Origin: Patiriisocius marinus
Lineage (GTDB): Bacteria > Bacteroidota > Bacteroidia > Flavobacteriales > Flavobacteriaceae
Length of the DNA: 64,000 nt
Assembly (NCBI RefSeq): GCF_008974325.1
Contig: NZ_BKCG01000009.1
Location: 1 to 64,000, forward strand
Direction: 5' to 3'
The notes under the pieces are model-generated. The model ran no database searches. It was not told where the DNA came from and worked only from the letters and a program-made list of their open reading frames with translations. Positions 55,340 through 63,376 of the stretch are shown here, piece after piece (within the stretch, counting starts at the first letter, position 1; each line of letters begins with the position of its first letter). The position numbers and the translations under genes are program-made.

Positions 55340-55370
55340 GTCCCAAACAATTTCGTTTAATTTGTTGAAT

Positions 55371-56459
55371 ATGAGAAGTCTTATTTTATTGTGGTTGCTT
55401 GTATGTGTTAGCTTGGCTTCAGCTCAAGGACAAACAACAAATTCCATAGATGCAAACTATTTTTATGGAAGTATTTTAAACCATAATAAAGATATTTCTC
55501 ATTTAATTAAAGGACATCCTGCTGGTGTAATTCTATCTTTTAACACACATACTTATGGTTTTAAAAGATGGGAGCAGGCTTTCAATTATCCTGATTACGG
55601 CTTTTCACTAATTTATCACAATCCAGACAATGATGTATTGGGAACTAATATTGGGATTCACGGTCACTACAATTTCTATTTTTTAAAACGAAGTCTCTTT
55701 TTTAGAGTAGGAACGGGTATTTCCTACGCTTCAAACCCTTTTGATCTTGATGAAAATTTTAAGAATAACGCCTATGGTACAAAGCTGTTGAACTCAACTT
55801 ATTTTATGCTTAATTACTCTAGGCAGAACATCATTAAAGGCTTTGGTATCCAAGCGGGAGTTTCACTAATTCATTATTCTAATGGAAATGTGAAAGCGCC
55901 AAATTCAAGTACAAATTCATTGACAGCTACTCTTGGGGTAAGTTATGAGTTAGCATATCAAAACAATCCTGAGTATCAACAAAATGATTATTCGAAGTAC
56001 ACAGAGCCTATACATATAAACTTAGTTCTACGAGCTGGGCTAAATGAAAGTGATTTTATTGGTACAGGTCAAAAGCCATTTTACATACTTTCGGCATATG
56101 CTGATAAACGAATTGGTTATAAAAGTTCATTGCAAGTAGGAGCAGATTTTTTTTACTCAAAATTTTTAGAAGCTGAAATCGATTATGTTGCAGCAGCATT
56201 TCCAACAAGAGGTGTAACCGGTGAAGAAGATTTTAAACGTGCGGGAGTTTTTATTGGTCACGAATTGCATTTCAATAAGCTGTCATTAATCACACAATTA
56301 GGGTATTATGTGTATTATCCTTATGATTTTGAAGGTAGAATTTACTTGCGTCCAGGGCTTAAGTATAAAGTCTATAAAAACACATTTGCATCAGTTTCAT
56401 TGAAATCGCACGGTGCAAAGGCAGAAGCAATTGAATTTGGTTTAGGAATACGATTATAA
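55371..56459 (+). CDS. PagL-like lipid A deacylase / acyloxyacyl hydrolase, copy 1
   Basis: 362 residues from ATG 55371; TTG codons just upstream are alternatives. A signal peptide ends at ASAQ. The body is an outer-membrane barrel ending EFGLGIRL, with the PagL catalytic-type motif in LIHYSNGNVKAPNSSTNS (His, Ser and Asn conserved). The family removes a 3-O-acyl chain from lipid A. It is the first gene of a tandemly repeated pair with a head-GIN protein. The second pair begins at 57263. Confidence 0.9.
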   Translation: MRSLILLWLLVCVSLASAQGQTTNSIDANYFYGSILNHNKDISHLIKGHPAGVILSFNTHTYGFKRWEQAFNYPDYGFSLIYHNPDNDVLGTNIGIHGHYNFYFLKRSLFFRVGTGISYASNPFDLDENFKNNAYGTKLLNSTYFMLNYSRQNIIKGFGIQAGVSLIHYSNGNVKAPNSSTNSLTATLGVSYELAYQNNPEYQQNDYSKYTEPIHINLVLRAGLNESDFIGTGQKPFYILSAYADKRIGYKSSLQVGADFFYSKFLEAEIDYVAAAFPTRGVTGEEDFKRAGVFIGHELHFNKLSLITQLGYYVYYPYDFEGRIYLRPGLKYKVYKNTFASVSLKSHGAKAEAIEFGLGIRL

Positions 56460-56467
56460 AATTAACA

Positions 56468-57235
56468 ATGGATAAATTATTAAAATTTCCGAAGTACTTT
56501 TTACTGTTAGCAGTTTTATTTGTGGGCTGTAATTCAGAAAATGTAGGAGATTGTTTTCAGGCCAAAGGGTCGATTATGCAATCAATATTTACTGTGCCTA
56601 GTTTTGATCAAATTCAAATTGAAGGCAATGTTTCTTTGTTTATTGAGCAAGGTGCCACACAAGAGGTTTCAATAGAAACTGGAGAAAATTTACTGCCAGA
56701 TGTATTTGTGGAAGTAGTGGATGGAACGCTCATAATTAGGGATACAAATAGCTGTAATTTTGTGCGTGAATATGGTAGTACTATTGCTAGAATTACAACG
56801 CCCAATATAACTAGAATCCAGAATGCATCTAGCTATGATGTTGTGGGGGTTGGGGAGCTATCATTTAATTCGCTTTTATTAGTAAGTAATACATCTGGTG
56901 GACTGGCAGATCCTAGAAAAGGTGGAGATTTTTATTTAGATATTAATACAACGGAGTTAAGAGTTAGTGCAAATGGTCAAAGTGCTTTTTACCTTAGCGG
57001 AAATGTTCAAACAGCAAATATTAATTTTGCAGATGAAAATCCGCGATTTGAAGGAGCAACTCTTCGTGTTGACGATTTGACAATATTTCAACGTTCTGCT
57101 AATAAGATGATTGTGTTTCCTGTTAATAGTATATCGGGTAGAATAGTTGGTACAGGCGATGTGATAGCTAAAAATACGCCTCCAATTGTTGAAGTAGAAG
57201 AATCATTTACAGGGCAATTAATCTTTGAAGATTAA
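56468..57235 (+). CDS. Head-GIN (DUF2807) lipoprotein, copy 1
   Basis: 255 residues. The lipobox is LFVGC (Cys21). The head-GIN domain (DUF2807) spans the rest: SFDQIQIEGNVSLFIEQGA, VSIETGENLLPDVFVEVVDG, FVREYGSTIARITTPNITR, and late QRSANKMIVFPVNSISG. The domain is a beta-helix-like protein of unknown function at the cell envelope. It starts 8 bp after the first PagL-like gene. Confidence 0.88.
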   Translation: MDKLLKFPKYFLLLAVLFVGCNSENVGDCFQAKGSIMQSIFTVPSFDQIQIEGNVSLFIEQGATQEVSIETGENLLPDVFVEVVDGTLIIRDTNSCNFVREYGSTIARITTPNITRIQNASSYDVVGVGELSFNSLLLVSNTSGGLADPRKGGDFYLDINTTELRVSANGQSAFYLSGNVQTANINFADENPRFEGATLRVDDLTIFQRSANKMIVFPVNSISGRIVGTGDVIAKNTPPIVEVEESFTGQLIFED

Positions 57236-57262: not shown

Positions 57263-58396
57263 ATGAAACATAAATTACTTTTAGCATTACTAGTATTGTC
57301 ATATGCGGCTTTTGGCCAGATACCTTCATCAAATCCTGATTTTGGAATTGAGCAGCGACCTTTCTCAATAGAAGCTGATTATTTTTATGGAAGTATTTTA
57401 GAACACAATCCAGATATTTCTCATTTAATAACAGGACATCCAAGAGGAGTGACTCTAACTTTTAATCGAAAGACTTACGGTTTTAAAGCTTGGGAACGTT
57501 TTCATAGATATCCAGATTGGGGAGTTACAGCAGCATATCAAAATATGCAAAACGAACACTTAGGTGAAGTGTTCAGTGCTTATGGACATTACAATTTCTA
57601 CTTTTATAATAGGCACTTGGTTATTCGTTTAGGTCAAGGTATTGCTTATGCCACAGATCCTTATGATGAGGTTGATAACCCTAAAAACAATGCGTACGGA
57701 ACTACTCTATTAAGTTCTACTTTTTTAAAATTAAATTATGTGAGAGAGAATGTGTGGAGGGGTTTTGGTTTTCATGCAGGTATTGATATAATACACTATA
57801 GTAATGCAAATTTAAGAGCGCCTAACAATAGTACAAATACACTTGGGGTTAATGCAGGTGTAAGTTATTTGTTCGATTACGAAAATTTCCCAGAGTATAT
57901 TCCTGTGCAAGATGGTGAGAAAAGCAGCGTTTATGCTGAGCCAATTAAATATAATTTTGTGTTTCGGTTTGGCTTAAATGAAAGTGATGTTTTAGGTTCA
58001 GGTCAATCTCCTTTTTATGTATTTTCTGCTTTTGCAGATAAGCGTATCAATTACAAAAGTACCCTACAAGCAGGAGTGGATGTATTTGTATTACCATTTT
58101 TAAAAGATTATGTTGAGTATCGAGCAATCGCATTTCCAGAAGATGGAGGTACTGGTACGGAAGATCATAAAAGAGTTGGGTTGTTTATTGGTCACGAGCT
58201 GCGCTTCAATAAAGTAGCATTTGTTTCGCAATTAGGGTATTATGTTTATTATCCTTTCGAATTTGAAAATAGAGTATATAATCGACTAGGCTTAAAACGC
58301 TATTTCTTTGATGACCGCTATTTTGCTGGCGTCACTGTAAAAGCGCATTGGGCAAAAGCCGAAGGTGTTGAATTTAGTTTAGGAATTAGATTATAA
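57263..58396 (+). CDS. PagL-like lipid A deacylase / acyloxyacyl hydrolase, copy 2
   Basis: 377 residues. Signal peptide ending AAFGQ. It is clearly paralogous to the protein at 55371: shared segments include DYFYGSILEHNPDISHLITGH, GHYNFYF and the catalytic IIHYSNANLRAPNNSTN, and the same EFSLGIRL end. It is 15 residues longer at the N-terminus. The two copies differ along their length, so the duplication is not recent. Presumed outer-membrane lipid A deacylase; different acyl-chain specificity is possible. Confidence 0.9.
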   Translation: MKHKLLLALLVLSYAAFGQIPSSNPDFGIEQRPFSIEADYFYGSILEHNPDISHLITGHPRGVTLTFNRKTYGFKAWERFHRYPDWGVTAAYQNMQNEHLGEVFSAYGHYNFYFYNRHLVIRLGQGIAYATDPYDEVDNPKNNAYGTTLLSSTFLKLNYVRENVWRGFGFHAGIDIIHYSNANLRAPNNSTNTLGVNAGVSYLFDYENFPEYIPVQDGEKSSVYAEPIKYNFVFRFGLNESDVLGSGQSPFYVFSAFADKRINYKSTLQAGVDVFVLPFLKDYVEYRAIAFPEDGGTGTEDHKRVGLFIGHELRFNKVAFVSQLGYYVYYPFEFENRVYNRLGLKRYFFDDRYFAGVTVKAHWAKAEGVEFSLGIRL

Positions 58397-58397
58397 T

Positions 58398-59153
58398 ATG
58401 AAAAAGCTTTTGTTAATTATTGTAGTAATGCTGTTTGTTAGTTGTGATTCAGAATCAGGACTTAATTGTATCCAGGCTTCTGGCGATATTGTTTCGGTTG
58501 AAATGACAGTTGATCAGTTTGATAAAATAACAGTATGGGAGCGAACTCAGTTAATTATAGAACAAGGTGATGAGCAGAAAGTGCTAATAGAAACTGGGGA
58601 GAATTTATTGAATGATATTGAGATTGTCGTAGAAGACGGCAGATTGAATGTGTATAATAATAACGGCTGTAATTTAGTTCGTGATTATGGGATTACAAAG
58701 GTGTATGTTACAGCTCCTAATATTTCTGAAATAAGAAGTAGTACTGGTTTGACAGTCGAAAGCAGAGGTGTTTTAAATTTCCCGAATTTAACCTTGTATT
58801 CTGAAGATCAGGGCAATGAGGATTTTTATCATACTGATGGAGATTTTAAACTTACTCTTGATGTTGATCATTTAAATGTTATCGCAAATGGACTTTCAGC
58901 ATTTAACCTTGAAGGAGAAGTAGATATAGCATTTTTTGGGTTATATGCAGGTGATTGTAGTATTGAAGCGCCTAACTTAATAGTGCAACATTTAAATTTA
59001 TTTCATAGAAGTACCAATGAAATGATTGTAAATCCACAACAATCTATTACGGGGCGTATAGTTAGTCTTGGTGACTGCATCTCGAAAAATAGACCGGATA
59101 GAGTTGAGGTAGAAACACCTTATAAGGGAAGGCTTATTTTTGACTTTGACTAG
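58398..59153 (+). CDS. Head-GIN (DUF2807) lipoprotein, copy 2
   Basis: 251 residues, starting 1 bp after the preceding stop. The lipobox is LFVSC, then DSESG. It matches the first copy: QFDKITVWERTQLIIEQGDEQ, LIETGENLLNDIEIVVEDG, LVRDYG, and late HRSTNEMIVNPQQSITGRIV. Its 3' end overlaps the convergent gldA stop by 20 bp. Function unknown; coupling with the PagL-like protein in both pairs suggests a joint role in lipid A remodelling. Confidence 0.88.
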   Translation: MKKLLLIIVVMLFVSCDSESGLNCIQASGDIVSVEMTVDQFDKITVWERTQLIIEQGDEQKVLIETGENLLNDIEIVVEDGRLNVYNNNGCNLVRDYGITKVYVTAPNISEIRSSTGLTVESRGVLNFPNLTLYSEDQGNEDFYHTDGDFKLTLDVDHLNVIANGLSAFNLEGEVDIAFFGLYAGDCSIEAPNLIVQHLNLFHRSTNEMIVNPQQSITGRIVSLGDCISKNRPDRVEVETPYKGRLIFDFD

Positions 59154-60045
59154 TGAGCTCGATAAATAGGTTTTCTAACGTAGTGTTTTTTTGATGGAGT
59201 TGTAGTATTTTCAGTCCATTGTCGTGAGCGAAATCGAATATGTTTCCTCTCATATCATTTTCAGTATCACAGTGTATGTGATAAACAAATCCACCAGGAT
59301 TTTCTACTTTAGAAACGTATTGAAGTTTTTGGATTGCTACTTCTTCAATGCGGTAGTCAAATTCAACTTCTATAATTTGCTGTTTGTTTTTAGCTAAAGA
59401 CTCAAGTGTTTTGTCTAGGACGATTTCACCTTTATTAATAATGATTACACGGTCGCAAATAGCTTCTACCTCTTGCATAATATGAGTAGAGAGTAAAATT
59501 GTTTTTCCGCCTTTTCCACCCAATCCTTTGATTAAAGACCTAATTTCTATTAATTGATTAGGGTCAAGTCCAGTAGTAGGCTCATCTAAGATGAGTATTT
59601 GTGGGTCGTGCAGTAATGCATTTGCAAGTCCAACTCTTTGTCGATAACCTTTAGAAAGTTGTTTTATTTTTTTTCCAGCTTCAGGAGTTAGTCCTGTTTG
59701 GTCAATAACCTTTTCGACTTCTTTTTTAGATATTCCGTAAATAGCTGCGTTAAATTGCAAATATTCCTTTACATACATATCTGTATATAATGGATTGTGT
59801 TCAGGTAAATATCCTACACTTTTCTGAACATCCTTAGCTGAGGTTGTTACCTCAAATCCATTTACAATAGCTATGCCTTCGGTTGATGGAATGAAGGTAG
59901 TGAGTATTTTCATCATGGTTGATTTTCCTGCGCCATTAGGCCCTAGAAATCCCACGATTTCACCGCTAGTTATATCAAAAGACACATTGTTCAGAGCTTT
60001 TTGATTTCCGTAGATTTTGGTAATATTTTTTACAGCTATAGACAT
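59134..60045 (-). CDS. gldA: Gliding motility ABC transporter ATP-binding protein GldA
   Basis: 303 residues from ATG 60045 (MSIAVKNITKIYGNQKAL). Walker A is GPNGAGKST, the signature LSKGYRQRVGLA, Walker B ILILDEPTTGLDP, and the switch His in LLSTHIMQEVEA. The length and the C-terminal ENLFIELTSQ agree with GldA, needed with GldF and GldG for gliding in Flavobacterium johnsoniae. GldF/GldG are encoded elsewhere in that species, as seems true here. Its stop overlaps the convergent head-GIN gene by 20 bp. Confidence 0.93.
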   Translation of the reverse strand: MSIAVKNITKIYGNQKALNNVSFDITSGEIVGFLGPNGAGKSTMMKILTTFIPSTEGIAIVNGFEVTTSAKDVQKSVGYLPEHNPLYTDMYVKEYLQFNAAIYGISKKEVEKVIDQTGLTPEAGKKIKQLSKGYRQRVGLANALLHDPQILILDEPTTGLDPNQLIEIRSLIKGLGGKGGKTILLSTHIMQEVEAICDRVIIINKGEIVLDKTLESLAKNKQQIIEVEFDYRIEEVAIQKLQYVSKVENPGGFVYHIHCDTENDMRGNIFDFAHDNGLKILQLHQKNTTLENLFIELTSQSQK

Positions 60046-60184
60046 ATTTCGATTCAAAAATAGTTAAAAACAGACTAAGGTAGTAGTTAAGATAACTTAA
60101 AATATGCAATAGATAGTATGTTCATTTTTTTTGGATTTAAGAAAAAATTAAAATAAAGTTGCTTTTAGTTTATAAAAAAAGTAC

Positions 60185-60192
60185 TAGTTTCG
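60185..60192 (+). promoter_or_regulatory. Promoter of the phenylalanine operon leader
   Basis: TAGTTTCG at 60185-60192 fits TAnnTTTG except for one base, with a TTG at 60159-60161, 23 bp upstream. It would start the transcript near 60197, just before the leader ORF. No other promoter match lies closer. Confidence 0.55.
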
Positions 60193-60210
60193 TGTTATAT
60201 AATTTAAGCA

Positions 60211-60282
60211 ATGAATAACAACGCTACATTTTTTAACTTTTGGTATTTCTATTTTATGGAAAAACCGGGGTTTGCTATGTAG
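60211..60282 (+). CDS. Aromatic-rich attenuation leader peptide
   Basis: 23 residues, beginning MNNNAT, with core FFNFWYFYF and ending MEKPGFAM before a TAG. Eight of nine consecutive codons in the core (60229-60255) encode Phe, Trp or Tyr. It precedes prephenate dehydratase and DAHP synthase, genes of Phe/aromatic synthesis, with a terminator between. This is the pattern of the pheL and trpL leaders. The stop codon lies 24 nt before the terminator stem. No homologue known to me in this phylum; assigned from composition and position. Confidence 0.85.
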   Translation: MNNNATFFNFWYFYFMEKPGFAM

Positions 60283-60336
60283 TTATATACAATATATTCT
60301 TTTACAATCCCGGACATAATGTTCGGGATTTTTTTT
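60265..60336 (+). promoter_or_regulatory. Attenuator: antiterminator pairing and intrinsic terminator before the phenylalanine operon
   Basis: Terminator: AATCCCG (60306-60312) with CGGGATT (60324-60330), extended by three more pairs to a 5-nt loop, then a T-run to 60336. Antiterminator: CCGGGGTT (60265-60272), within the leader codons, pairs with AATCCCGG (60306-60313), which would remove the terminator's left arm. If ribosomes stall on the aromatic codons, the first pairing forms and transcription goes on; if they reach the TAG they cover 60265-60272 and the terminator forms. Confidence 0.8.
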
Positions 60337-60356
60337 GTCCAATAAATTTTAAAACT

Positions 60357-61238
60357 ATGAGTCTAAAAATCGCAATCCAAGGTATTGAAAGTTCGTTTCA
60401 TGATTTAGCCGTACAACAATTTTTTCCTGAAATGGATATAACTCTTGTTCCGTGTAGTTCTTTTAAACAGGTTACTTCTGCACTTGAGCAGAAAAAAGTT
60501 GATATGGGAGTTATCGCAATTGAAAACACAATTGCAGGATCAATATTACCAAATTATCAATTGATAGATGATGGTGATTTTAAAATTTTAGGTGAAACTT
60601 TTTTAACGATCAATATGTATATGATGGCACTAAATGGACAAACTATACATGATATTGATGAGGTGCATTCGCATCCAGTAGCATTGCAGCAGTGTAGTGA
60701 TTATTTGCAAAAACTGCAGCCACATTGTAAGATTATTGAAGGAAAAGACACTGCATCTGTAGCTAAGAAAATAAAGGAGCAAGGCTTAAAAAACGTAGCC
60801 GCAATTGCAGGTAAACAAGTTGCTGAAAAATTTGGGTTAACCATATTAGATAGAAAAATTCAAACCATAAAAGAAAATAAAACTCGCTTTGTAATTTTAG
60901 GAAATAACCCAATTAATAGTGAAGGTATCAATAAAGCATCAGTGAAATTTGAGTTGGATCACGAAATAGGGAGTCTTTCAAATGTGTTACAACTATTGAG
61001 TACCTTTGGTATTAATTTGACCAAAATTCAATCCTTTCCTATAGAGGGTAAACCTTGGCAATATGCATTTTTCATAGATGTATTGTTTAAGGATTATGAA
61101 CTGTTTCAGGAAGTTGTTTTGTTATTAGAAAAAGCAGTGTTGAAACTTAAAATTATGGGTGTTTACCAGCAGAATTTAACAAACAATCCTTACAAAGTTA
61201 CTAAGGAGAATGAATTGATGTATGAAATGTCAAAATAG
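60357..61238 (+). CDS. pheA: Prephenate dehydratase
   Basis: 293 residues from ATG 60357; in-frame extension upstream would read through the terminator and is rejected. The PDT domain (1-180) has IAIENTIAGSILPNYQLI and the TRF motif in ENKTRFVILG; the ACT regulatory domain (195-270) has DHEIGSLSNVLQLL and IQSFPIEGKPWQYAFFIDV, corresponding to the GALV and ESRP sites for Phe feedback. It makes phenylpyruvate. Preceded by the leader/attenuator; the DAHP synthase gene follows 35 bp downstream. Confidence 0.95.
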   Translation: MSLKIAIQGIESSFHDLAVQQFFPEMDITLVPCSSFKQVTSALEQKKVDMGVIAIENTIAGSILPNYQLIDDGDFKILGETFLTINMYMMALNGQTIHDIDEVHSHPVALQQCSDYLQKLQPHCKIIEGKDTASVAKKIKEQGLKNVAAIAGKQVAEKFGLTILDRKIQTIKENKTRFVILGNNPINSEGINKASVKFELDHEIGSLSNVLQLLSTFGINLTKIQSFPIEGKPWQYAFFIDVLFKDYELFQEVVLLLEKAVLKLKIMGVYQQNLTNNPYKVTKENELMYEMSK

Positions 61239-61273
61239 CATAATTGATATTTCAAATAAAATAATAGAATAAA

Positions 61274-62356
61274 ATGGAAAATAAGAAAGAATTAAGAACT
61301 TGGTTAAATAAAATGGAGCTAGCTCATCCTTTAGTGATAGCAGGACCTTGTAGTGCCGAGACAGAATCGCAATTACTTAAAATTGCACACCAATTAAAAG
61401 ATACAGACGCAACAGTTTTAAGAGCTGGTATTTGGAAACCTAGAACTCGTCCAGGAAATTTTGAAGGAGTAGGAGCGTTGGGGTTAAAATGGTTACAAAA
61501 AGCTAAAGAAGAAACAGGAATGCTAACTACTACTGAGGTTGCAAATGCAAACCATGTAGATTTAGCGTTAAAGCATGATGTCGATATTTTATGGATAGGA
61601 GCCCGTACAACGGTTTCGCCATTTATTGTTCAAGAAATAGCTGATGCTTTAAAAGGGACTGATAAAATAGTACTTATTAAAAATCCAGTTAACCCAGATT
61701 TAGCATTATGGTTAGGGGCTGTAGAGCGTTTCTATACTGCCGATGTGAAAAATCTAGGAGTAATACATAGGGGTTTTTCAACTTATGAGAAAAATACATA
61801 CCGCAATAATCCAGAATGGCAAATACCAATAGATTTACAAAATAAATTTCCAGATTTACCACTTATATTAGATCCTTCCCATATTGCAGGTAGAAGAGAT
61901 TTAATTTTTGATCTATGTCAAACAGGATTAGATTTAAATTATGATGGAATAATGGTGGAAACACATTACGATCCTGATAATGCATGGAGTGATGCTGCAC
62001 AGCAGATTACTCCTGAAACTTTAGCACAAATGACGGTTGATTTAAAAATACGTGTTGAAGAAGGTGATGAGGTAGAGTTCAAAAATAAATTGAATACATT
62101 ACGTACTAAAATAGATGTAATGGATCATCAATTAATTGAGACCCTTGGAAAGAGAATGCGTATTGCAGATGAAATAGGGGGGTTGAAAAAGAAGCAAAAT
62201 GTTTCAATTTTACAAACTAGAAGATGGAACGAGGTACTTGGTAAGATGATTTTAGAAGGAGAAGAGTATAAACTAAGCGAAGAGTTTATCCTTAAAATCT
62301 ATAAAGCAATACACCAAGAATCGATAAATCATCAGAAAAAAGTGATAATTGGTTAA
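61274..62356 (+). CDS. Bifunctional 3-deoxy-7-phosphoheptulonate synthase/chorismate mutase type II
   Basis: 360 residues. DAHP synthase domain of the I-beta type at 1-265: HPLVIAGPCSAETESQ, RAGIWKPRTRPGNFEGVG, IGARTTVSPF, DPSHIAGRRDL and the C-terminal ETHYDPDNAWSDAAQQ. A chorismate mutase II domain at 270-355 begins KLNTLRTKIDVMDHQLIETLG. One enzyme thus opens the shikimate pathway and converts chorismate to prephenate, the substrate of the gene upstream. Fusion of the two is typical of Bacteroidetes. Confidence 0.96.
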   Translation: MENKKELRTWLNKMELAHPLVIAGPCSAETESQLLKIAHQLKDTDATVLRAGIWKPRTRPGNFEGVGALGLKWLQKAKEETGMLTTTEVANANHVDLALKHDVDILWIGARTTVSPFIVQEIADALKGTDKIVLIKNPVNPDLALWLGAVERFYTADVKNLGVIHRGFSTYEKNTYRNNPEWQIPIDLQNKFPDLPLILDPSHIAGRRDLIFDLCQTGLDLNYDGIMVETHYDPDNAWSDAAQQITPETLAQMTVDLKIRVEEGDEVEFKNKLNTLRTKIDVMDHQLIETLGKRMRIADEIGGLKKKQNVSILQTRRWNEVLGKMILEGEEYKLSEEFILKIYKAIHQESINHQKKVIIG

Positions 62357-62410
62357 AAAAGTGATAATAGCTTCGTGTATTTAAAGATATTTTAATCAAT
62401 TTTACACCGT

Positions 62411-63376
62411 ATGAAAGGAACCGTTTATAAATCTACTGGAAGTTGGTACACTGTTAAATCTGAACAGGGAACATTTTATGAGTGCCGTATTAAAGGCCGA
62501 TTTAGAATGGAAGGTATTAAAAGTACTAATCCTGTTGCAGTAGGAGACCATGTTCAATTTGACGTGGAGAAAAAAGGAGATGAGACACTTGGTATTATTC
62601 ATACAATAGAGCCAAGAGAGAATTACATTATCCGTAAATCGGTTAACCTTTCTAAACAAACGCATATTATAGCAGCAAATATTGATGTAGCTTTTTTGCT
62701 TGTAACATTAAACAATCCACCCACTTTTACCTCTTTTATAGATAGATTTCTGGTTACTGCAGAAGCCTATCATATTAAGGCAGTGTTACTTTTCAATAAA
62801 ATTGACACTTATAATGAGGAAGAAATTTTAGAGATAAAATACCTAGCTGCTCTTTATAGAAGCATAGGGTATGAGTGTGTGGGTATTTCGGCTACAACTG
62901 GAAAAAATATAGAGAAAGTGAAAGCTATGATGCAAGGGAAAGTGAGTATGTTTTCTGGTCATAGTGGTGTTGGGAAATCTACGTTGGTGAATATCATCGA
63001 GCCAGGCTTAAGTATAAAAACTACGGAAATTTCAAGTCAACATAAACAAGGACAACATACAACAACTTTTGCTGAAATGTATGATCTTTCATTTGATGCT
63101 CAGATAATTGACACACCGGGAATTAAAGGATTTGGAATTGTTGAAGTTGAAAAAGAAGAATTAGGAGATTATTTCCCTGAATTTTTTGAACTCAAACAGT
63201 ATTGTAAATTTAATAATTGTCTTCATGTAGAGGAACCAAAATGTGCTGTAAAAGCGGCATTAGAAAACGATGAGTTGGCTTGGTCTCGTTATAAGAGTTA
63301 CTTGCAAATAATGGAAGGAGAAGAAGATCATTTCAGAAAAGATATATACGAAAAACAACAACCGCCTCAGGAATGA
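62411..63376 (+). CDS. rsgA: Ribosome small subunit-dependent GTPase RsgA
   Basis: 321 residues. An OB domain (1-70, KGTVYKSTGSWYTVKS), a circularly permuted GTPase domain with G4 NKID, G1 SGHSGVGKSTLVN and G3 DTPGI, and a C-terminal zinc knuckle (CKFNNCLHVEEPKCAVK). RsgA acts late in 30S assembly. The order of G motifs confirms the family. Its stop overlaps the dtd start by 4 bp (ATGA). Confidence 0.97.
   Translation: MKGTVYKSTGSWYTVKSEQGTFYECRIKGRFRMEGIKSTNPVAVGDHVQFDVEKKGDETLGIIHTIEPRENYIIRKSVNLSKQTHIIAANIDVAFLLVTLNNPPTFTSFIDRFLVTAEAYHIKAVLLFNKIDTYNEEEILEIKYLAALYRSIGYECVGISATTGKNIEKVKAMMQGKVSMFSGHSGVGKSTLVNIIEPGLSIKTTEISSQHKQGQHTTTFAEMYDLSFDAQIIDTPGIKGFGIVEVEKEELGDYFPEFFELKQYCKFNNCLHVEEPKCAVKAALENDELAWSRYKSYLQIMEGEEDHFRKDIYEKQQPPQE

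Follow-up and report, generated by a model that had tools for sequence, protein, structure and literature searches.

A predicted leader-peptide attenuator with aromatic control codons upstream of the prephenate dehydratase operon in Patiriisocius marinus and other Flavobacteriaceae

We analyzed a stretch of 64,000 nucleotides (hereafter the window) from Patiriisocius marinus, a member of the Flavobacteriaceae whose 3.56 Mb genome is assembled in 28 contigs (GCF_008974325.1; the window is positions 1 to 64,000 of contig NZ_BKCG01000009.1). Near its end, the window carries a gene for prephenate dehydratase, followed on the same strand by a fusion of DAHP synthase and chorismate mutase that is likely the second gene of the same operon (Table 1). 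The ACT domain model PF01842 scored 26.7 bits on the prephenate dehydratase, slightly below its cut-off of 27. Among the matches listed, the closest named prephenate dehydratases were those of Altibacter (67%) and Kordia (65%), both of which are Flavobacteriaceae. The upstream neighbour, gldA, is transcribed divergently. Loci L001–L033 of the survey described below include 16 on the minus strand, and 11 of these (L004, L007, L008, L010, L011, L015, L018, L021, L023, L030, and L031) have a similar ABC ATPase, as judged by eye, that is likewise divergent and on the same side. The window also holds a tandem duplication of a two-gene unit (55362-56459 / 57263-58396 and 56468-57235 / 58398-59153), with 206 of 362 and 110 of 250 residues identical in the two pairs.

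Table 1 Features of the prephenate dehydratase locus in the window.
Feature	Position	Strand	Details
gldA	59134-60057	-	divergent upstream neighbour of the leader
Promoter candidate	60159-60192	+	TTG at 60159-60161 and TAGTTTCG at 60185-60192, one mismatch to the TAnnTTTG -7 box
Leader peptide ORF	60211-60282	+	MNNNATFFNFWYFYFMEKPGFAM, 23 codons, no Shine-Dalgarno; ATG 60211, stop TAG 60280-60282
Aromatic control codons	60229-60255	+	FFNFWYFYF, codons 7-15, read directly
Segment 1:2 hairpin	60223-60283	+	alternative to 2:3; -17.5 kcal/mol; outer stem GCTACAT/ATGTAGT
Segment 2	60265-60272	+	CCGGGGTT, antiterminator partner of segment 3; shuffle p 0.005
Segment 3	60306-60316	+	terminator left arm; 60306-60313 = AATCCCGG, pairs with segment 2
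Segment 4	60320-60336	+	terminator right arm and U-tract; 3:4 stem -14.1 kcal/mol
Prephenate dehydratase with ACT-like region	60357-61238	+	ATG 60357; PF00800 E 2.1e-53
DAHP synthase / chorismate mutase type II fusion	61274-62356	+	PF00793, PF01817

A first-pass annotation of the window had described, ahead of prephenate dehydratase, a 23-codon leader with the core FFNFWYFYF and its stop at 60280-60282, a strong terminator at 60306-60336, and an alternative pairing of 8 bp between 60265-60272 and 60306-60313, the pairing region lying after the aromatic codons and before the stop. The leader was borne out letter for letter. The terminator is present with a stem of 11 pairs and a T-run, the alternative pairing exists and contains one G-U, and segment 2 does lie between the end of the core at 60255 and the stop codon. 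Among the 657 ATG-started ORFs of 8–40 amino acids on both strands of the window, the leader alone had eight aromatic residues out of nine, and the runner-up had five of nine. Forty second-order Markov copies of the window yielded 36,386 such ORFs, none of which exceeded seven of nine.

The terminator stem AATCCCGGACA/TAA/TGTTCGGGATT spans 60306-60330, and its T-run extends to 60336. The region 60195-60345 folded with an energy of -32.9 kcal/mol (z -3.46), and 0 of 200 shuffles folded as well. The 2:3 pairing had an energy of -8.4 kcal/mol with an open loop and -11.5 kcal/mol with the loop folded. A further hairpin, absent from the first-pass annotation, is referred to as 1:2. In it, the leader's first half, starting at 60223 and including core codons, pairs with 60256-60283, which holds segment 2. 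The window holds all four segments of a classic attenuator. The terminator pattern by itself proves little, as two terminator-like sites were found in 59000-63000 compared to 1.7 expected from shuffles.

To place the leader among relatives, we surveyed Flavobacteriaceae genomes, 186 of 199 of which contained prephenate dehydratase. A total of 153 family loci were read, 152 of them belonging to the 186 and the last being an additional locus from the same genus; the 34 unread loci were the lowest-scoring matches, and at least 12 of these were without a tyrA match (some by inference). An aromatic leader preceded prephenate dehydratase in 148 of the 153 loci, comprising 142 of 148 loci oriented by tblastn, locus L150, and five strand-oriented loci read by eye. 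The criterion was at least six aromatic residues in ten within 350 nt, and the L150 leader lies further upstream. When at least seven in ten were required, 140 of the 148 loci scored, compared to 0 of 148 reverse strands and 40 of 2960 Markov copies. The leader was not found in the 350 to 500 nt scanned at five family loci (L009, L060, L105, L110, and L138), of which L105 had only ~373 upstream bases on its contig. Of the best 80 named loci among the matches listed, 79 had an aromatic leader, in Flavobacterium, Kordia, Altibacter, Polaribacter, Tenacibaculum, Aquimarina, Maribacter, Winogradskyella, Flagellimonas, Bizionia, and others; this set overlaps with the 153 loci, some genomes being in both. 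The single locus with no leader within the scanned 350 to 500 nt came from an uncultured Gelidibacter (L254), and another Gelidibacter locus (L200) had one. The conserved aromatic codons that the first-pass annotation proposed to look for in relatives are therefore present in both sets.

Beyond the family, a search of the class found prephenate dehydratase in 47 of 158 genomes, five of which were from the family itself. Leaders with at least seven aromatic residues in ten were found in 16 of the best 28 loci from other families of the class, representing seven family codes; the benchmark for this score was the family control, with 40 of 2960 Markov copies. With a narrow scan, a terminator was also recognized at 10 of the 16 loci. 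In the family with code f12, the leader was lacking in all five loci read.

A start codon in frame and in range was found in 141 of the 142 scored leaders. Upstream of it, within 60 nt, the motif TAnnTT[TAC]G occurred in 137 of 141 leaders compared to 16.8 expected from base shuffles, and in 133 of the 137 it lay 14–31 nt before the ATG. The consensus TAnnTTTG is quoted in PMC9723704, and the transcription start sites are predicted to lie a few nucleotides ahead of the leader ORF. Only 1 of 141 leaders had a Shine-Dalgarno-like 4-mer. The start context was rich in adenine, with 82% of leaders having A at -3 and 64% at -6, and the same two adenines are reported as positive determinants of initiation in Flavobacterium johnsoniae (PMC6847099); the window leader carries G and T, respectively, at these two positions. 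This conservation bears on an alternative in which an unregulated terminator and 5' UTR, such as would mark where a transcript from upstream ends, happen to adjoin a chance small ORF. The simple scan, which found about as many terminator sites as in shuffles, would suit such a reading. However, gldA is divergent, so that no gldA transcript ends here, and both the leader (148/153) and the promoter element (137/141) are conserved, and we consider this alternative extremely improbable.

The RNA anatomy downstream of the leader was also kept in the family. All 142 scored loci had a hairpin with a U-run after the leader; for L107 and L149 the script picked another hairpin, and by eye the terminator was seen and the leader was complete. 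In 121 of the 142 loci, segment 2 started 9–12 nt past the last aromatic codon. Six core bases of the terminator arm and their partners in segment 2 were compared in 139 of the 142 loci, three being outside the register, and 791 of the 834 cells were paired. Swapping rows 1000 times gave 732 paired cells on average and never more than 745, a comparison in which the register, picked by best complementarity, favours native over swapped rows. The 2:3 pairing was better than in shuffles at p 0.05 in 107 of 142 loci. The first-pass annotation had also called for covarying stems. Segments 2 and 3 did change together across rows, with the terminator arm/segment 2 combinations GTCTCG/CGAGAC, GTCCCG/CGGGAC, GTCCTG/CAGGAC, ACCCGG/CCGGGT, and ATCCCG/CGGGGT (the last being that of the window). 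Tree-aware tests of this co-change were underpowered, with 2–4 supported independent pairs per position, and were never clearly opposite.

The competing helix 1:2 was formed in 435 of 455 cells in one group of 38 leaders and in 700 of 714 cells in another of 42, while its best slid versions reached 266 of 455 and 563 of 714 cells. Two-sided changes amounted to two pairs per group and were matched by slid versions, being no commoner than in those versions in one of the two groups, so it is conservation and not covariation that supports 1:2. Across 136 loci, segment 2 was 77% paired upstream compared to 50% with shuffled upstream RNA. The stop codon meets segment 2 in six significantly paired loci (L016, L022, L038, L056, L070, and L114) and, by eye, comes ahead of it in three (L043, L113, and L127). 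That segment 2 is kept despite an early stop indicates that the RNA, not the peptide tail, is conserved. Four more early-stop loci (L030, L074, L104, and L142) had no significant 2:3 pairing.

A folded 5' leader ahead of an amino-acid operon could also be a T-box or riboswitch that binds tRNA or a ligand without any need for translation. The conserved part is a reading frame, which argues against this, and no T-box or riboswitch was among the 16 Rfam matches in 59900-60600 at E values up to 5. At gathering thresholds, Rfam found no T-box or riboswitch in 20 related loci, the only matches being two to Flavo-1 and one to a tRNA, none of them in a leader. We thus give hardly any credence to a leader of this type. 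The Flavo-1 match L022:2434-2511 lay ~400 nt upstream of prephenate dehydratase (a minus-strand gene), and the match L198:5672-5749 lay ~1.4 kb downstream of the end of the gene.

To relate codon position to RNA folding, we modelled a ribosome whose edge lies 12 nt past the first base of the A-site, a value that may not be that of this phylum, on RNA made to just before segment 4. The model covered 140 of the 142 loci (L107 and L149 were dropped). In the window, the antiterminator stayed intact while the ribosome stood on any of the core codons, the last of which is codon 15; it was partly open when the ribosome stood on codon 16 and lost at codon 17. When the A-site held the last aromatic codon, the antiterminator was present in 140 of 140 loci, and likewise at each of the eight preceding codons. 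At the next three codons it was present in 135, 43, and 5 of 140 loci, afterwards in 3–15 of 139–140, and with the ribosome at the stop codon in 2 of 140. Shuffled spacers gave 62, 74, 63, and 59 of 140 for the last aromatic codon and the next three, and fell off gradually with no such step.

Once segment 4 was included, the minimum-energy fold of the window leader was 3:4 for all ribosome positions tried, and without a ribosome it was 3:4 in 140 of 140 leaders. Since 3:4 wins as soon as segment 4 is made, antitermination must be kinetic. Without a ribosome and before segment 4, 82 of 136 relatives had 2:3 in their best fold and 51 had 1:2, while in the window 2:3 did not beat 1:2; under a looser criterion that counted any upstream partner of segment 3 as an antiterminator, 104 of 140 leaders had one. 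Termination in the absence of translation suits the window, but by energy alone it does not suit most relatives.

Together, the locus has an ORF with control codons, an intrinsic terminator before the first gene, and a 2:3 pairing that excludes the terminator, with segment 2 just past the control codons. The reading as attenuation in the first-pass annotation is supported by this anatomy of leader, terminator, and antiterminator, which is kept in relatives. Given the anatomy and its conservation, the way segments 2 and 3 change together across rows, the constant distance from the last aromatic codon, and the fold energies, the element very probably controls the prephenate dehydratase – DAHP synthase/chorismate mutase operon by ribosome-mediated transcription attenuation. 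Where transcription starts, how the ribosome moves, that tRNA is the signal, and which way the operon responds we infer by reasoning from the sequence. RNA polymerase would start a few nucleotides ahead of the leader ORF, and a ribosome would load onto the leader without a Shine-Dalgarno sequence. When charged tRNA-Phe, tRNA-Tyr, and probably tRNA-Trp are scarce, the ribosome would slow with one of codons 7–15 in its A-site, breaking 1:2 and leaving segment 2 barely free at its leading edge. Segment 2 could then pair with segment 3 ahead of the synthesis of segment 4, and the polymerase would read on. When charged tRNAs are plentiful, the ribosome would reach the stop codon and cover segment 2, allowing the 3:4 terminator to form. 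If the window leader is not translated, 1:2 would hold segment 2 and termination would be expected.

Slowing at the same codons might have another cause. In nascent-peptide arrest, for which the TnaC and erm leaders are examples, the aromatic peptide would jam the ribosome tunnel, perhaps together with a small effector, and the arrest would set the fold without sensing tRNA charging. In favour of arrest, all 142 loci have aromatic residues at the final four positions of the core, the very last being aromatic because of how the core is defined. However, Phe, Tyr, and Trp interchange at most positions and the remaining peptide varies, its tail can be removed without loss of segment 2, and the codons fit the products of the downstream operon. 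Arrest by the peptide is therefore quite improbable, and the element, which is real and conserved, most likely works as a multi-aromatic attenuator.

Which amino acids are sensed is a separate question. The first-pass annotation had suggested that the mixed codons sense all three. Among the 12 codons that end the core, every one of the 142 loci had both Phe and Tyr, and 95 of them had Trp. It is possible, though we regard it as unlikely, that the attenuator responds to Phe alone and that the Tyr and Trp codons serve RNA pairing or are passengers: Phe occupied positions 0, -1, and -2 in 123, 124, and 117 of 142 loci, and segment 1 lies inside the core, so pairing constrains its letters. Against this, Tyr was universal and the commonest residue at -3 (107 of 142), Trp was frequent, and DAHP synthase makes the operon feed all three amino acids. 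Moreover, an aminotransferase and a tyrA (prephenate dehydrogenase) match were also found downstream in 73 of the best 80 named loci among the matches listed, and the order aminotransferase-tyrA-DAHP synthase-chorismate mutase was found in 70 of them. Mixed sensing of Phe, Tyr, and Trp is thus plausible for this leader.

The genome of P. marinus departs from this gene content. Matches to tyrA were found in 169 of 199 family genomes (167 above the cut-off), but there was no match anywhere in the P. marinus genome, in which an aromatic hydroxylase-family protein was matched. In the family, this hydroxylase was found in 28 of 32 genomes with no or a weak tyrA match versus 13 of 21 genomes with tyrA (Fisher p 0.045), 10 of the 32 having been assigned by subtraction among the matches listed. 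P. marinus may produce tyrosine from phenylalanine, in which case the Tyr codons would report phenylalanine supply. We do not claim that loss of tyrA leads to fewer Tyr codons, and leaders of the clade of the window retain Tyr.

Attenuators of this kind are known from other bacteria. The pheL leader of Escherichia coli and Salmonella is a short Phe-rich ORF followed by segments that can form alternative hairpins, and the leaders of the ilvGMEDA and thr operons have mixed control codons. The element described here resembles pheL-pheA in its short Phe-rich ORF, four segments, and intrinsic terminator before prephenate dehydratase, but it mixes Phe, Tyr, and Trp codons, has no Shine-Dalgarno sequence, and differs in gene order and second gene. 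It resembles ilvGMEDA and thr in that a single leader would sense several amino acids of a branched pathway, but its codons are aromatic rather than branched-chain and it belongs to another phylum. In its accessible text, PMC1183508 lists pheA among the known attenuators and also names the ilvGMEDA and thr operons. Of the first-pass proposal that the leader is of the pheL/trpL type, the mode of action holds, as the leader would work like pheL, while homology is not supported, as there was no match to the Rfam family Phe_leader (RF01859). In the P. marinus genome, for which 150 of 937 candidates were scored, this family gave 46 matches at E values up to 10, the best with 36.2 bits versus a gathering threshold of 55 bits; none was on the contig of the window (C9), and none was among the 16 matches in 59900-60600.

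The first-pass annotation had also held that peptide-leader attenuation is little described in Bacteroidetes. It does have a precedent in the phylum, since the accessible text of Guerin et al. 2021 (PMC9723704) already reports strong clues of it before amino-acid operons of Flavobacterium psychrophilum. The same text describes the pheA 5' element as conserved, common to other Flavobacteriaceae genera, and without an Rfam family. We likewise found a conserved structured 5' region before pheA in several Flavobacteriaceae genera. The gene and the family are the same and conservation extends beyond the genus, and the leader described here and that pheA element are candidates for being the same element; the section on the element in PMC9723704 is without peptide, segments, codons, geometry, or survey. 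In Bacteroides thetaiotaomicron, small ORFs in long 5' UTRs resemble leader peptides, according to the accessible part of PMC7366714. We did not find the resolved anatomy, breadth, and geometry in the open-licence literature, although a 2010 attenuation survey cited in the accessible part of PMC4833913 may cover the phylum. The kind of regulation is known and a lead has been published, while the resolved anatomy, the breadth, and the ribosome geometry are new here.

It is somewhat probable that much of the class Bacteroidia uses a leader that senses the charging of Phe, Tyr, and Trp tRNAs, with a Kozak-like start free of Shine-Dalgarno sequences, a predicted 5' UTR of ~5–20 nt, and a distance from codons to antiterminator set at the ribosome edge. 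If this is true, the ribosome follows RNA polymerase closely at transcript starts in Bacteroidota. The element provides a defined, conserved test bed for possible ribosome-RNA polymerase coupling at transcript 5' ends and for sufficiently fast leader loading without a Shine-Dalgarno sequence in this phylum. It is also a candidate aromatic-amino-acid sensor for Bacteroidota, and the family could be proposed to Rfam.

Two other leaders were observed in the P. marinus genome, for which the same scan of 2:3 geometry gave no significant result (p 0.47 for the trp and 0.80 for the his leader). At L184:732-830 (contig C5, about 91916-92014), a leader ending in MQTTNNHTWWWNNSRQFS is followed by a terminator 12 nt before a chorismate-binding gene predicted to be TrpE-like, and is likely a trp attenuator. 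At L186:1137-1196 (contig C2, about 410896-410955), before hisG, the leader MNNNQVHHHHLINHAPARK is followed by a terminator and is likely a his attenuator.
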